A DNA stretch of 64,000 nucleotides from positions 1 to 64,000 of the forward strand of contig DASQAT010000026.1 of assembly GCA_035635555.1 (NCBI GenBank), in the 5' to 3' direction. Below, one piece after another: positions 3,092 through 26,542 of this stretch. A model generated the notes under the pieces. It saw nothing but the letters and a program-made list of their open reading frames with translations. It was not told the DNA's origin and searched no databases. This DNA is from Candidatus Dormiibacterota bacterium (GTDB lineage Bacteria > Acidobacteriota > Polarisedimenticolia > Gp22-AA2). Position 1 is the stretch's first letter; every line of letters starts with the position of its first letter. Position numbers and translations under genes: made by a program.

Positions 3092-3442
3092 ATGGCGAGA
3101 AGCATCAAGAAGGGCCCGTACGTCGAGGCGCCGCTCAGGAAGCGCATCGAAGAGATGAACCGGCGATTCGAGAAGAAGGTCCTGAAGACCTGGTCGCGGC
3201 GCTCGACGATCATCCCCGACATGGTCGGGCACACGATCGCGGTGCACAACGGGAAGAAATTCATCCCGGTGTACATCTCCGAGAACATGGTGGGCCACAA
3301 GCTTGGCGAGTTCGCCCCGACGCGCACGTTCCGCGGCCACTCGCGCGCGGACTCGGCAGCGGCGGCGGCCGGCGCGCCCGGAGCCCCCGGGTCGCCGGGA
3401 GGCCCGGCCCCCTCGGCGGGCGTCGTTCAGACTACGAAGTAG
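3092..3442 (+). CDS. rpsS: 30S ribosomal protein S19 with Ala/Gly/Pro tail
   Basis: 116 residues; the family is usually about 90-95. The core, from [11 protein letters not shown] through [18 protein letters not shown], is standard S19, which binds the 16S head next to S13. The extra 25 or so residues at the C-terminus are low complexity ([20 protein letters not shown]). Whether the tail is ordered cannot be told from sequence. It lies between rplB and rplV in the conserved order. Confidence 0.96.
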
Positions 3443-9100: not shown

Positions 9101-9488
9101 CGCGAAGAAACCGTCCGCGGGCGCCAAGCGGGTCAAGAAGACGACGGCGCGCCCTGCGGCCGCGAACAAACCGGCGAAGCGCGCCGCGGCGACGCCGAAA
9201 GCGGCCGGTGCTTCCGGGCACTCCGAGGCCGGGCCGGGCAACATCCCGGAGTCGCCGCAGCCGCGGGCCCGGGAGCCGCGCGTCCGGAAGCCTTCGGGCG
9301 CGACGATCACCATCGTGCAGTACGTGAGCGGCATCGCCTGCCCGGTGCGACAGAAGCGGGTGCTGCGCGCGCTCGGCCTGCGCCACCCGCACCATCGCGT
9401 GGTGCGGCCGGACAACCCCGCGGTGCGCGGCATGGTGAAGGCGATTCCGCACTTGGTCAGGATCGAGGAGGGGGAGCGTGGCGCGTAA
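9093..9488 (+). CDS. rpmD: 50S ribosomal protein L30 with long N-terminal extension
   Basis: 131 residues, about twice the normal 60. The last 60 or so residues are ordinary L30 ([44 protein letters not shown]). The first 70 are Lys/Ala/Pro-rich low-complexity sequence. No ATG or GTG near the core offers a shorter start, and ATG 9093 overlaps the rpsE stop as expected for a coupled start. The extension is therefore probably translated. The stop also overlaps the rplO start. Confidence 0.9.
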
Positions 9489-22112: not shown

Positions 22113-23309
22113 ATGACCCGTCCGGCGATGCTGATCGTCGATCACGACGAGATGTCCCGCTCCCAGCTCAAGGAGAGGATCGCGGCGGTCAGTCCGCCCG
22201 GGATGGAAGTCCTGGCCGCGGCCTCGGCGGAGGAAGGGCTCGGCGTCCTGTACGCGCTGCGGGAGCAGAACCGGCCGATCGAGCTGGTGATCGCCGCTCA
22301 GAGAATGCCGGGAATCCCGGGCGGGCGGTTCCTGGAGATCGTCAACGCCCAGTTCTCGACCGTCGGGAAGATCCTCCTGTCGGACAAGCCCAGCCTGGAC
22401 GAGGCGATCTACGCCCTGAACAACGCCGGCCTCGACAAGTACATCCCGACTCCGTGGGACCTCGAGGACATCAAGTTCACCATCACCGCCCTCCTGCGGC
22501 AGCGGGAGATGAAGCGTCTGAACGAGAGGCTCCTGTCGGACCTGCAGGTGCGGAACCAGCAGCTCACGGCCGCCCTCGGCAACCTGGAGCAGGCCCGAAA
22601 CGACCTGGAGCACTCCTACATCCAGACCGTCGAGTCGCTGGCCATCGCGCTCGAGGCGAAGGACCGCTACACCTCCGGCCACTCGCAGCGCGTGGCCAAG
22701 TTCGCCCGCCTGATCGCGCGGTCCATGGGATTGCCGAAGGAGGAGGTCGACATCGTCGCGCAGGTGGCGCTCCTGCACGACATCGGCAAGATCGGCATGC
22801 TGGACAAGATCCTGAACAAGCCGGCCAATCTCACGCCGGAGGAGCGCGAGTCGATCAAGTCGCACCCCGTGGTCGGCGCCCAGATCCTGGCCCCCGTGGC
22901 CACGTTCACCAAGCACGTGGCGGGGATCAAGCACCACCACGAGATGTACGACGGCACCGGCTACCCCGACAGACTGAAGGGAACGGACATCCCGCTGGCG
23001 GCGCGCATCGTCTGCCTGGCCGACGCCTTCGACGCCATGACTTCGACGCGCCCGTACCGCGTGGGGCTGCCGCTCGAGTTCGCGATGCAGGAAATGAAGA
23101 AGATGGCCGGGCGCCAGTTCTGTCCCGAGTGCGTCGAGGCCTTCATCCGCGTCCTGAAGTCGAAGGGGGTCGTCGACGGGGAGATCGCGCAGCCTCCCGC
23201 GGCGGAGCCCGGACCGGCACCGGCGGTCCACGCCGGGCCCGCCGCCGAAGAGGCTCCCGGGGACAAGGCGGGTCCCTTCCCCGCCGCGGAAGCCCGCACC
23301 GGCACCTGA
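22113..23309 (+). CDS. HD-GYP domain protein with degenerate receiver domain
   Basis: 398 residues. Residues 1 to about 125 form a CheY-like receiver, then a coiled-coil-like linker rich in Leu/Glu/Arg, then an HD-GYP domain (about 165-345) that in this family hydrolyses cyclic di-GMP. The active-site HDIGKIGM and HHEMYDGTGYP motifs are intact. In the receiver, the position of the phosphorylated Asp is Ala62 (VIAAQRMPG instead of the usual D-x-RMPG), and the conserved Lys before the proline is Thr (YIPTPWD). It therefore probably cannot be phosphorylated in the usual way. The C-terminal 45 residues are Ala/Pro-rich. Confidence 0.9.
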   Translation: MTRPAMLIVDHDEMSRSQLKERIAAVSPPGMEVLAAASAEEGLGVLYALREQNRPIELVIAAQRMPGIPGGRFLEIVNAQFSTVGKILLSDKPSLDEAIYALNNAGLDKYIPTPWDLEDIKFTITALLRQREMKRLNERLLSDLQVRNQQLTAALGNLEQARNDLEHSYIQTVESLAIALEAKDRYTSGHSQRVAKFARLIARSMGLPKEEVDIVAQVALLHDIGKIGMLDKILNKPANLTPEERESIKSHPVVGAQILAPVATFTKHVAGIKHHHEMYDGTGYPDRLKGTDIPLAARIVCLADAFDAMTSTRPYRVGLPLEFAMQEMKKMAGRQFCPECVEAFIRVLKSKGVVDGEIAQPPAAEPGPAPAVHAGPAAEEAPGDKAGPFPAAEARTGT

Positions 23310-23354: not shown

Positions 23355-23383
23355 TTGACAGTCGCCCCGGAGTCGTGTAGGAT
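23355..23383 (+). promoter_or_regulatory. Promoter of the RHH-nadA operon
   Basis: TTGACA (23355-23360), 17-base spacer, TAGGAT (23378-23383). The surrounding 60 bases are the most AT-rich of this part of the window. Predicted start near 23390, inside the palindromes described in the next entry. The consensus -35 and ideal spacing make it convincing. Confidence 0.65.
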
Positions 23384-23385
23384 AT

Positions 23386-23413
23386 TATAGTTGTACTATA
23401 TAAAGTTTATATA
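23386..23413 (+). promoter_or_regulatory. Two overlapping palindromes, candidate operator for the RHH protein
   Basis: TATAGT-tgt-ACTATA (23386-23400) and TATATAAA-g-TTTATATA (23397-23413, 8-base perfect arms) overlap by 4 bases. They cover the predicted transcription start to about +24 and lie 34 bases before the start of a ribbon-helix-helix gene. Such genes commonly bind palindromes in their own promoters. That this protein binds here is inference. Confidence 0.5.
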
Positions 23414-23446
23414 ACATCAGCCGTACCCGAGGAGCCCCGAGCCACC

Positions 23447-23674
23447 ATGCCGGTTCACAAGAAGATACGCACCTACACGGCCACCGAACTCGACCTGACG
23501 ATGCTCGAGACCATCGCCCGGTACCACGGCTTCTCGAAGAGCGCCACGATCACGAGCCTCATCAAGAGGGAGTTCTGGAGAGTGTTTCCAGCCGGGACCC
23601 GCGACATCCGTCCGGAGCGGGGCGCGCGGGTGGTCGAGCACGGAGCGAAGGGGGAGAAGCATGCGGGCCGTTGA
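23447..23674 (+). CDS. Small ribbon-helix-helix (CopG-like) DNA-binding protein
   Basis: 75 residues. The N-terminal 50 residues fit the RHH pattern: a basic strand (KKIRTYTATELDLTMLETIA), a first helix, the turn HGFSKSATI and a second helix TSLIKREFWRV. The remaining 25 residues are charged and appear disordered. Dimers of such proteins bind palindromic operators. It is followed by nadA, which starts 14 bases before this gene ends, so the two are in one operon. I infer autoregulation and control of nadA from the palindromes upstream; no family name can be given. Confidence 0.75.
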   Translation: MPVHKKIRTYTATELDLTMLETIARYHGFSKSATITSLIKREFWRVFPAGTRDIRPERGARVVEHGAKGEKHAGR

Positions 23675-24668
23675 GGAGGCCGTTGCGATTGCCGAGGAGT
23701 CGACCCCCGCGCCCTGGCGCGTCGGGGACGCGCGCGCGACCGTCCGCAGGATCGAGTCGATCCGGGCCCTGGCGCGGGCCAGGAACGCGGTCCTCCTGGC
23801 CCACAACTATCAGCTCCCCGAAGTGCAGGAGGCGGCCGACTTCGTCGGGGATTCGCTCGGGTTGTCGCTCGAGGCGCAGAAGACCGGGGCGCGCACCATC
23901 GTGTTCTGCGGCGTCCACTTCATGGCGGAGTCCGCGAAGATCCTGAACCCGGACAAGACCGTCCTGCTTCCCAGCCTCTCGGCGGGGTGCGCCCTGGCCG
24001 ACTCGATCACGCCCGAGTCGCTCCTGAAATGGAAGGAGCGCTATCCCGACCACACCGTCGTGACCTACATCAACAGCAGCGCCGAGGTGAAGGCGATGTC
24101 CGACATCTGTTGCACGTCGGCGAACGCGGTGACCGTCGTCCGCAGCCTGCCGGGCCGGAAGGTGCTGTTCACTCCGGACCGGAACCTCGGACGCTGGGTG
24201 GCCCGGCAGGTCCCGGAGAAGGAGATCGTCGTGTACGACGGAGCGTGTCCGACGCACGACGTGCTGCGGGACGCCAGTGTCGACCGGGCGCGTCTGGGGC
24301 ATCCGGACGCCGTCGTGATCGCGCACCCCGAGTGCCGCGAGGACGTGCTGGCGATGGCCGACGAGGTGTGCTCGACCTCGGGCATGCTCCAGGCGGTGCA
24401 GCGCCACCCCGAGGCCCGCACCTTCATCATCGCCACGGAGTGGGCCCTCATCCATCAGCTCAAGAAGCGCTTCCCCGACCGCCAGTTCATCCCGGCCGAC
24501 GGCTGCATCGGCTGCCGCCTGCACTGCCCCTACATGAAGATGATCGGCCTCGACACGGTCGAGCGCTCCCTCCGCGAAAACGTTTTCGAAATCACGGTCG
24601 ATGCCGAGGACGCGGTCCTGGCGCGCCGGGCCCTCGAGCGCATGATGGCCGTGCCTCGGGACCGCTGA
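23661..24668 (+). CDS. nadA: Quinolinate synthase
   Basis: 335 residues. It condenses iminoaspartate and dihydroxyacetone phosphate to quinolinate in de novo NAD synthesis and carries a [4Fe-4S] cluster. Likely ligands are Cys110 (SLSAGCALAD), Cys196 (DGACPTHD) and one of Cys282/Cys285 (GCIGCRLHCP). AHNYQLPEVQEAADFVGDSL and FCGVHFMAESAKILNP are strongly conserved. GGGGAG lies 5 bases before ATG 23661. nadB and nadC, often adjacent elsewhere, are absent from this window. Confidence 0.96.
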   Translation: MRAVEEAVAIAEESTPAPWRVGDARATVRRIESIRALARARNAVLLAHNYQLPEVQEAADFVGDSLGLSLEAQKTGARTIVFCGVHFMAESAKILNPDKTVLLPSLSAGCALADSITPESLLKWKERYPDHTVVTYINSSAEVKAMSDICCTSANAVTVVRSLPGRKVLFTPDRNLGRWVARQVPEKEIVVYDGACPTHDVLRDASVDRARLGHPDAVVIAHPECREDVLAMADEVCSTSGMLQAVQRHPEARTFIIATEWALIHQLKKRFPDRQFIPADGCIGCRLHCPYMKMIGLDTVERSLRENVFEITVDAEDAVLARRALERMMAVPRDR

Positions 24669-24778: not shown

Positions 24779-26542
24779 ATGACAGCCCCCAAAAGCGCCC
24801 CGAAGACCGACGCGGCCCCGCGGCCCCCGACGCGCAAGATCGTCTACTGGTTCCTGCTGGTCCTGTCGGCGATGGGGCTCCTGCCGCTGGGGATCACCGC
24901 CTACAAGCTGATCAGCTACAGCCGCGAGGCCCTGGTCACCTCGCAGCAGGAGGCGCAGCTGCAGACGGCGGCGGCGGTGGCGCGCCAGCTGAACGCGGCG
25001 ATCGAAGGGGTCAAGGCGCAGATGGGGCGACTGTCCGAGGCGATCGCGGCGCTGCCGAGGGCGTCCGCGGCCGGCGGGGGGCGTCTCATCCCGGACCGCA
25101 CGCTGATCGAGCGTCTCATCGGGACCGACCTCCTCCTGGTGCGCTACACGCCGAAGGACGGAGAGTCGGTCGAGGCGCGCCAGCCCGGGTTCCCGCGGTC
25201 GGCGGTGGAGGCGACGGTCAAGGAGGGAGTGAAGGCCGCGATGCAGGGGGGACAGGACGTGAGCGACCCGGTGGTCCTGGAGACGGACGAGGGTCAGCAC
25301 TCGGTGCTGATCGTGAGCGTCCCGGTCGGGATCGGAACCGCCCCGGTCGGAGCCCTCACGGGGGTCGTCGATTTCGCGGCGTACTGGGACCCGGTGGTGG
25401 GCGGACGGCGCGCGTCCTACCTCATCTATGCGCTGGACAGCCAGGGACGTCTGTTCGCCAGGCAGGACGAGGAGGGGGTCTTGAAACGCAGCGACCTGCG
25501 CACCTTCGGGGTGGTGCAGGACTGCCTGAAGGCCGGCGGACACTCGGCCCTGACCTCGGAGTACGTCCTGACGATCGACAACCGGCCGGTGCCGTACATC
25601 GCCTCCTGCGACACCACGGCCCAGGGCTGGAAGATCTTCGTGCAGATTGAGAAGAAGCAGGCGTACGCGACCGTGAACCAGATGATCCAGGCGACCCTCT
25701 TCTGGGCCGGCCTGGCGATGGCTCTGGCGCTCATTCTCGCGTACCTGCTGGCCGGGCTGATCACCCGGCCGATCAAGGCGCTGGCGGCCGGGACCGAAGC
25801 GTTCGCGAAGGGGCAGCTCGACCAGCGCGTGCGGGTCGACGCCCGGAACGAGCTGGGGGCGCTGGCCGACACCTTCAACGCCATGGCGGACCAGCTGCAG
25901 AACTACATCCAGCGCCTGTCGGCTGCCGTCACCCTGAACAGCGAGCTGTTCATCGGCACGGTCAAGGCGCTGGCCGAGGCCATCGACGAGAAGGACCCGT
26001 ACACGCGGGGCCATTCCGAGCGCGTCAACCAGTACGCCGTGCTCCTGGCCAAGCAGATGGGTCTCTCCAAGAAGGAGATCTACGAGGTCCACATCTCGTC
26101 GCTGTTCCACGACATCGGCAAGATCGGCATCGAGGACAAGATCCTGCGCAAGCCGGCGGCGCTCACGGACGAGGAGTACACCGTCATGAAGCAGCACCCC
26201 AACAAGGGGTATCAGATGCTGTCGAAGATCAAGCCGATGAAGGACATCATTCCAGGGGTGCGCTTCCACCATGAGCGCTGGGACGGATCGGGCTACCCCA
26301 TGGGGATGAAGGGGGAGCAGATTCCCCTGCCGGCGCGCATCGTGGCGATCGCCGACGCCTTCGACGCGATGACCACCAATCGCCCCTACCAGAAGGCGAT
26401 GCCGTTCGACAAGGCGATCGCGCGGCTGTTCGAGCTGAGCGACCGCGCCTTCGACCGGCGCGTCGTCACTGCGTTCAACGAGGCGTACAAGGCGGGGGCC
26501 TTCAAGGCGCCGGAGAAGCCGGCCGCCTACCAGGAAATGTGA
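24779..26542 (+). CDS. Membrane c-di-GMP phosphodiesterase-type protein (sensor-HAMP-HD-GYP)
   Basis: 587 residues. One membrane span lies near residues 21-45 (WFLLVLSAMGLLPLGITAY), then a periplasmic domain of about 255 residues resembling a dCache sensor, then a second span near 303-328. HAMP follows (LITRPIKALAAGTEAFAKGQ) and HD-GYP from about 395. HDIGKIGIEDKI and HHERWDGSGYPMGMKGEQ are complete, so hydrolysis of cyclic di-GMP is expected. It probably senses an extracytoplasmic ligand. The HAD gene starts 4 bases before its end. Confidence 0.9.
   Translation: MTAPKSAPKTDAAPRPPTRKIVYWFLLVLSAMGLLPLGITAYKLISYSREALVTSQQEAQLQTAAAVARQLNAAIEGVKAQMGRLSEAIAALPRASAAGGGRLIPDRTLIERLIGTDLLLVRYTPKDGESVEARQPGFPRSAVEATVKEGVKAAMQGGQDVSDPVVLETDEGQHSVLIVSVPVGIGTAPVGALTGVVDFAAYWDPVVGGRRASYLIYALDSQGRLFARQDEEGVLKRSDLRTFGVVQDCLKAGGHSALTSEYVLTIDNRPVPYIASCDTTAQGWKIFVQIEKKQAYATVNQMIQATLFWAGLAMALALILAYLLAGLITRPIKALAAGTEAFAKGQLDQRVRVDARNELGALADTFNAMADQLQNYIQRLSAAVTLNSELFIGTVKALAEAIDEKDPYTRGHSERVNQYAVLLAKQMGLSKKEIYEVHISSLFHDIGKIGIEDKILRKPAALTDEEYTVMKQHPNKGYQMLSKIKPMKDIIPGVRFHHERWDGSGYPMGMKGEQIPLPARIVAIADAFDAMTTNRPYQKAMPFDKAIARLFELSDRAFDRRVVTAFNEAYKAGAFKAPEKPAAYQEM

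Follow-up and report, generated by a model that had tools for sequence, protein, structure and literature searches.

The window, which is the whole 64-kb stretch of DNA that we analyzed, encodes a 75-aa protein that is likely a CopG-like ribbon-helix-helix (RHH) autorepressor of NAD supply. We propose that it controls de novo synthesis where that pathway is present and probably nicotinate import elsewhere, with a pathway metabolite as the co-repressor. The linkage of its gene to nadA, the phased operator in front of it, the match to the RHH fold, and the association with loss of nadA and nadC are shown below. DNA binding, repression, the ligand, and the transported substrate are inferred, and there are no binding or expression data.

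Four types of NAD-pathway repressors have been described, namely, NadR, NiaR, NrtR, and NadQ (PMC12421817). Their folds are other than RHH, being helix-turn-helix (HTH) with 3H, HTH-NMNAT-kinase, or Nudix-type. Our searches of the open-access literature turned up no RHH protein regulating NAD or niacin genes, and the phyla carrying the present family are not known to have an NAD regulator. The small protein very likely represents a previously undescribed family of NAD-supply regulators, with the reservation that its DNA binding, repression, and ligand are inferred.

RESULTS

A small gene overlaps nadA in the window

The regulator gene occupies positions 23447 to 23674 of the + strand and encodes 75 aa. 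The gene behind it, at positions 23661 to 24668 of the same strand, encodes a 335-aa quinolinate synthase, NadA. Its product matched PF02445 with an E value of 1.5e-116 and both TIGR00550 and NF006878 above cut-off in Pfam and NCBIfam scans, and its identity is unambiguous. The last 14 bases of the small open reading frame (ORF) are the start of nadA. An earlier note, made from sequence alone, had described a 75-residue RHH protein sharing 14 bases with nadA, and the coordinates and the NadA domain matches bear this out. Upstream on the + strand are a −35 element, TTGACA, at positions 23355 to 23360, which was read from the sequence, and a −10 element, TAGGAT, at positions 23378 to 23383, which was inferred from the consensus and is separated from the −35 element by a 17-bp spacer.

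The two-gene unit is flanked by genes at positions 22113 to 23309 and 24779 to 26542. The products of these flanking genes share a common region of about 180 residues that is 47% identical and appears HD-GYP-like by motif. Both genes are kept in close relatives.

The 75-aa protein resembles DNA-bound CopG

Library scans gave no significant Pfam match and no NCBIfam match for the 75-aa protein, and RHH Pfam families were absent from the matches of all 67 family members scanned. A few members had weak PHROG matches to CopG-like repressors. The absence of an RHH family-model match reflects a gap in library coverage rather than a test of the fold. The Pfam and NCBIfam scans also detected none of the domains of NadR, NiaR, NrtR, or NadQ (HTH-NMNAT-kinase, HTH-3H, and Nudix-type), and the statement in the earlier note that these known regulators are not RHH proteins held.

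We built an AlphaFold model of the monomer on 67 family members. It has an extended N terminus followed by two helices (residues 14 to 27 and 31 to 46), with a mean pLDDT above 90 over residues 11 to 50. The strand that defines the RHH fold forms only in the dimer. The top Foldseek matches were CopG-DNA complexes, with a probability of 0.99 and 42% identity over 38 columns, but with E values above 0.1. These E values are poor because the domain is so small, a 40-residue fold. A sequence search of the family profile against solved structures returned only noise, apart from CopG at an E value of 0.33. Beyond the RHH core, the family has a conserved C-terminal stretch (FP-GT--I-PD-GA-V) that was modeled with low confidence. 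Family proteins are about 64 to 84 aa long, and no ligand-binding domain was visible in the small RHH protein. The fold is likely of a known kind, and the family, its target, and its operator appear to be new.

The RHH gene is linked to nadA across phyla

A protein search found homologues in 10 of 60 related genomes, and all 10 were directly upstream of nadA and in the same direction. A wider scan, with one genome per species, yielded 66 named homologue loci from about eight phyla. They come from Acidobacteriota, Myxococcota (including five Anaeromyxobacter species), Planctomycetota, Gemmatimonadota, Latescibacterota, SAR324, Lambdaproteobacteria, and Melainabacteria, all of which have nadA-linked loci, and from Betaproteobacteria. 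At 54 of the 66 loci, nadA lies directly downstream in the same order and orientation; one of these (L015) was counted via its contig, that of L004 and L012. The two genes mostly overlap by 4 bases, in an ATGA-type start/stop.

We placed 78 NadA proteins in a tree. The 58 that are RHH-linked, from many phyla, fell on one side of a branch with 100/100 support, and those from Acidobacteriota of the same class that lack the RHH gene fell on the other. Therefore, the RHH gene and nadA traveled, or were retained, together as a cassette. With 41 relatives checked, every NadA of more than 70% identity had an upstream RHH gene. We considered a genome of the same genus (G001) as a counterexample lacking both genes. 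It was rejected because contig C51 of this genome begins within the RHH gene, which lies behind a perfect operator and there encodes MPGHKKIRTFTATEQDLVM.

Two further arrangements were seen. One contig (C349 of genome G004) carries the RHH gene and nadA twice (L004 and L012), 3.35 kb apart and with equal match scores; the two alternatives are that a tandem duplication occurred recently and that this is an artifact of assembly. At two SAR324 loci and one deltaproteobacterial locus (L025, L038, and L039), the ORF right after nadA looked NadC-like by eye, and these may be RHH-nadA-nadC operons.

The operator is a row of 8-bp boxes with an 11-bp period

Three boxes, which make up an AT-rich operator, precede the gene in the window, all on the + strand. 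Box 3, at positions 23407 to 23414, is TTATATAA, a perfect 8-bp palindrome supported by the sequence and by family comparison. Box 2, CTATATAA, at positions 23396 to 23403, has one mismatch to TTATATAA. Box 1, TTATAGTT, at positions 23385 to 23392, is degenerate, with 3 mismatches, but it lies 11 bp before box 2 and fits the period. Together, the boxes cover the expected transcription start.

The earlier note had instead seen two overlapping perfect palindromes on the predicted transcription start and had taken them as the site. Their placement at the start held. The palindromes themselves held in part: the second, at positions 23397 to 23413, is exact (TATATAAA-g-TTTATATA), and the first, at positions 23386 to 23400, has perfect 6-base arms around a central TGT that is not palindromic. 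As a conserved functional unit, the nested palindromes failed and were replaced by 11-bp-phased boxes, because box pairs across the family peak at 11, 22, and 33 bp. With two mismatches allowed, 66 pairs were 11 bp apart, compared with 4.5 in shuffled sequences; the counts were 20 versus 3.0 at 22 bp and 8 versus 1.6 at 33 bp. No pairs were found at a spacing of 10 or 12 bp. Smaller peaks at 9 and 13 bp may stem from the TA repeat inside the box. The conserved element is thus a row of self-palindromic 8-bp TTATATAA boxes with an exact 11-bp period.

The 17-mer palindrome at positions 23397 to 23413 occurs once in the 4.28-Mb genome, even when 3 mismatches are allowed. Of 70 sequences, 48 had a two-box site with at most 2 mismatches ahead of the homologue, versus 1.2 expected from locally shuffled upstream regions of the same 70. 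Because the 17-mer is unique in the genome and the two-box site is enriched over shuffles, the operator site is not a chance occurrence. We also looked for a wider regulon in the window's own genome and saw none. The operator site occurs there once, and therefore nadC, on contig C46, is not under the same site.

The position of the boxes relative to the promoter varies among relatives. In several of them (e.g., L028, L049, and L053), the −10 hexamer, at 17 bp from TTGACA, doubles as the first box. By a permissive criterion, a −35-like hexamer precedes box-like sequences in 50 of the 70 upstream regions. In Anaeromyxobacter, one good box is kept and the second is poor. Tandem operator boxes about one helical turn apart are a feature of the RHH class, and the 11-bp period meets it, although binding is inferred. 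Phased boxes over a promoter are the arrangement expected for side-by-side RHH dimers; this predicts repression, an inference without binding data.

The linkage and the operator bear on whether the RHH gene is a chance neighbor of nadA or an orphan antitoxin-type gene unrelated to it. Many RHH proteins are antitoxins, and three orphan loci in Lambdaproteobacteria and SAR324 (L031, L056, and L059) have no nadA, no recognizable operator, and unrelated neighbors. However, the same order and orientation with nadA at 54 of 66 loci in about eight phyla, together with a conserved operator, all but exclude this explanation. No toxin gene lies between the RHH gene and nadA; the neighbor is nadA at 54 of 66 loci and a transporter at nine. 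We therefore rejected a chance or antitoxin neighbor on the comparative linkage data. The earlier note had held that its reading would be refuted if the gene sat beside unrelated genes in relatives with no conserved palindrome. We looked for this outcome and it was not met, as the gene adjoins nadA and the operator is conserved. The proposal in that note of an autoregulated RHH repressor of quinolinate synthase is supported by the linkage and the operator, with repression and DNA binding still inferred. The note missed how the operator is actually organized, how widely the family is distributed, and a second target, a transporter.

Nine genomes without nadA have a transporter behind the same operator

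Of the homologues, 12 lack an adjacent nadA; nine of these are betaproteobacterial, one is lambdaproteobacterial, and two are from SAR324. None of these 12 genomes has nadA, and none has a convincing nadC, with no match or only weak matches (E values of 1e-6 or worse). By comparison, nadC gave strong matches (1e-38 to 1e-68) in all 17 nadA-linked genomes tested. The exceptions therefore strengthen the link to NAD.

At the nine betaproteobacterial loci, it is a Liv-type ABC transporter that follows the same operator and the RHH gene (positions 3186 to 6169 of L032, with equivalents at L023, L029, L037, L045, L047, L049, L053, and L057). The gene order is a binding protein (PF13458), a fused permease (PF02653), and two ATPases. 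All nine also have a strong match for pncB, a gene of nicotinate salvage (PF04095, 1e-66 to 1e-74), and three of these were checked as TIGR01514. In seven of the nine, pncB is on the same contig, 8 to 24 kb downstream of the operator, and in the other two the contigs differ. A second operator target in the nadA-less genomes was not supported, since other two-box matches were few and at the level of the reversed-pattern control. Therefore, pncB is near but not visibly under an operator of its own.

We then surveyed 300 genomes from the order of one of the betaproteobacteria (G399), of which 238 had nadA and 62 lacked it. The three RHH-bearing genomes among them all lacked nadA. The transporter binding protein was present in 40 of 62 nadA-minus genomes versus 8 of 238 nadA-plus genomes (Fisher, 6.6e-26, with relatedness ignored; the statistics treat related genomes as independent). 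Because the occurrence of the binding protein follows the loss of nadA, the transporter very probably brings in an NAD precursor. That precursor is most probably nicotinate, for PncB. In both statements, the transported substrate is inferred.

These genomes also speak against a role of the small protein as an accessory subunit of NadA or as a translational-coupling leader rather than a transcription factor. The ORFs overlap in most members and both genes co-occur, as such a role would have it. However, in the nine betaproteobacterial genomes that lack nadA, the protein has been retained with the same operator in front of a transporter, and the fold match is to DNA-bound CopG. We regard this alternative as very unlikely.

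DISCUSSION

We favor a model in which the RHH protein acts as a repressor. RHH dimers would line up side by side on the TTATATAA boxes, one per 11-bp turn. The boxes overlap the transcription start, and in several relatives also the −10 element, and occupancy would block RNA polymerase. The protein's own gene and the co-transcribed, overlapping nadA would be shut off together, and the protein would release its target genes when the NAD precursor is short. In lineages that have lost the de novo pathway, the RHH protein would use the same operator to control the Liv-type transporter and thereby, most probably, nicotinate import for PncB. The signal is inferred and is most likely a co-repressor from the NAD pathway (nicotinate, NAD(H), or an intermediate), because both targets share the supply of an NAD precursor.

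The main rival is a ligand-free autorepressor that senses no metabolite and holds its own operon and nadA at a set-point, for noise control. This remains possible. The family proteins are only about 64 to 84 aa and lack a ligand domain, and CopG is a ligand-free autorepressor in plasmid copy control. However, where nadA and nadC are absent, a transporter has taken the place of nadA as the target, which suggests that the protein senses NAD supply, and DNA binding alone leaves the conserved C-terminal stretch beyond the RHH core unexplained. A second rival is a regulator with a non-NAD signal, such as aspartate, or oxygen, iron, or a redox state relevant to the oxygen-sensitive Fe-S protein NadA, which is a 4Fe-4S enzyme. 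We consider it unlikely. The family proteins examined contain no cysteines that could serve in a redox or Fe-S sensor, and oxygen or iron does not explain an alternative target that is a solute transporter tracking nadA loss.

The repressor that we favor has the same predicted job as NadR, NiaR, NrtR, and NadQ, to repress genes of NAD synthesis or precursor uptake, and resembles NiaR and NadR in that the genes of the regulon may be for synthesis in one organism and for transport in another. It differs from all four in having 75 aa, a predicted RHH fold, and none of their domains. With CopG, Arc, and MetJ it shares a small predicted RHH core (CopG being its best structural match), phased palindromic boxes over the promoter, and expected autoregulation. 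Unlike them, the family has no Pfam or NCBIfam match, a TTATATAA box with an 11-bp period, a conserved C-terminal stretch, and a tie to nadA or a transporter, not to plasmid copy control or methionine genes. MetJ offers a precedent, as an RHH protein that represses a cofactor pathway with the end product, S-adenosylmethionine, as co-repressor.

If the model is true, this would be a fifth type of NAD-pathway repressor and the first with an RHH fold. Along with MetJ, it would also provide a second example of a very small RHH protein that represses a cofactor pathway and may do so in response to one of its metabolites. On balance, we lean toward a bolder reading, that a fifth, RHH-type family of NAD-supply repressors in about eight phyla detects a metabolite of the NAD pathway with no separate ligand domain and, where de novo synthesis was lost, switched its target from quinolinate synthase to a previously unrecognized Liv-type nicotinate ABC importer. 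The simple operator code is offered for testing.

By guilt by association, the model also suggests that, in betaproteobacteria without de novo NAD synthesis, a family of ABC importers takes up an NAD precursor, probably nicotinate. Among solved structures, the nearest relative of the betaproteobacterial binding protein is the Liv-type solute-binding protein of PDB 3I45 (E value of 2e-145), whose database name is only Tat-signal protein. This structure may contain nicotinic acid, and our conclusion does not rely on it. In at least two genomes, the region between the transporter and pncB (positions 9401 to 11186 of L152 and 6256 to 8038 of L153) carries a RutE-like malonic semialdehyde reductase gene (NF003768) and a CoA-transferase-like gene.
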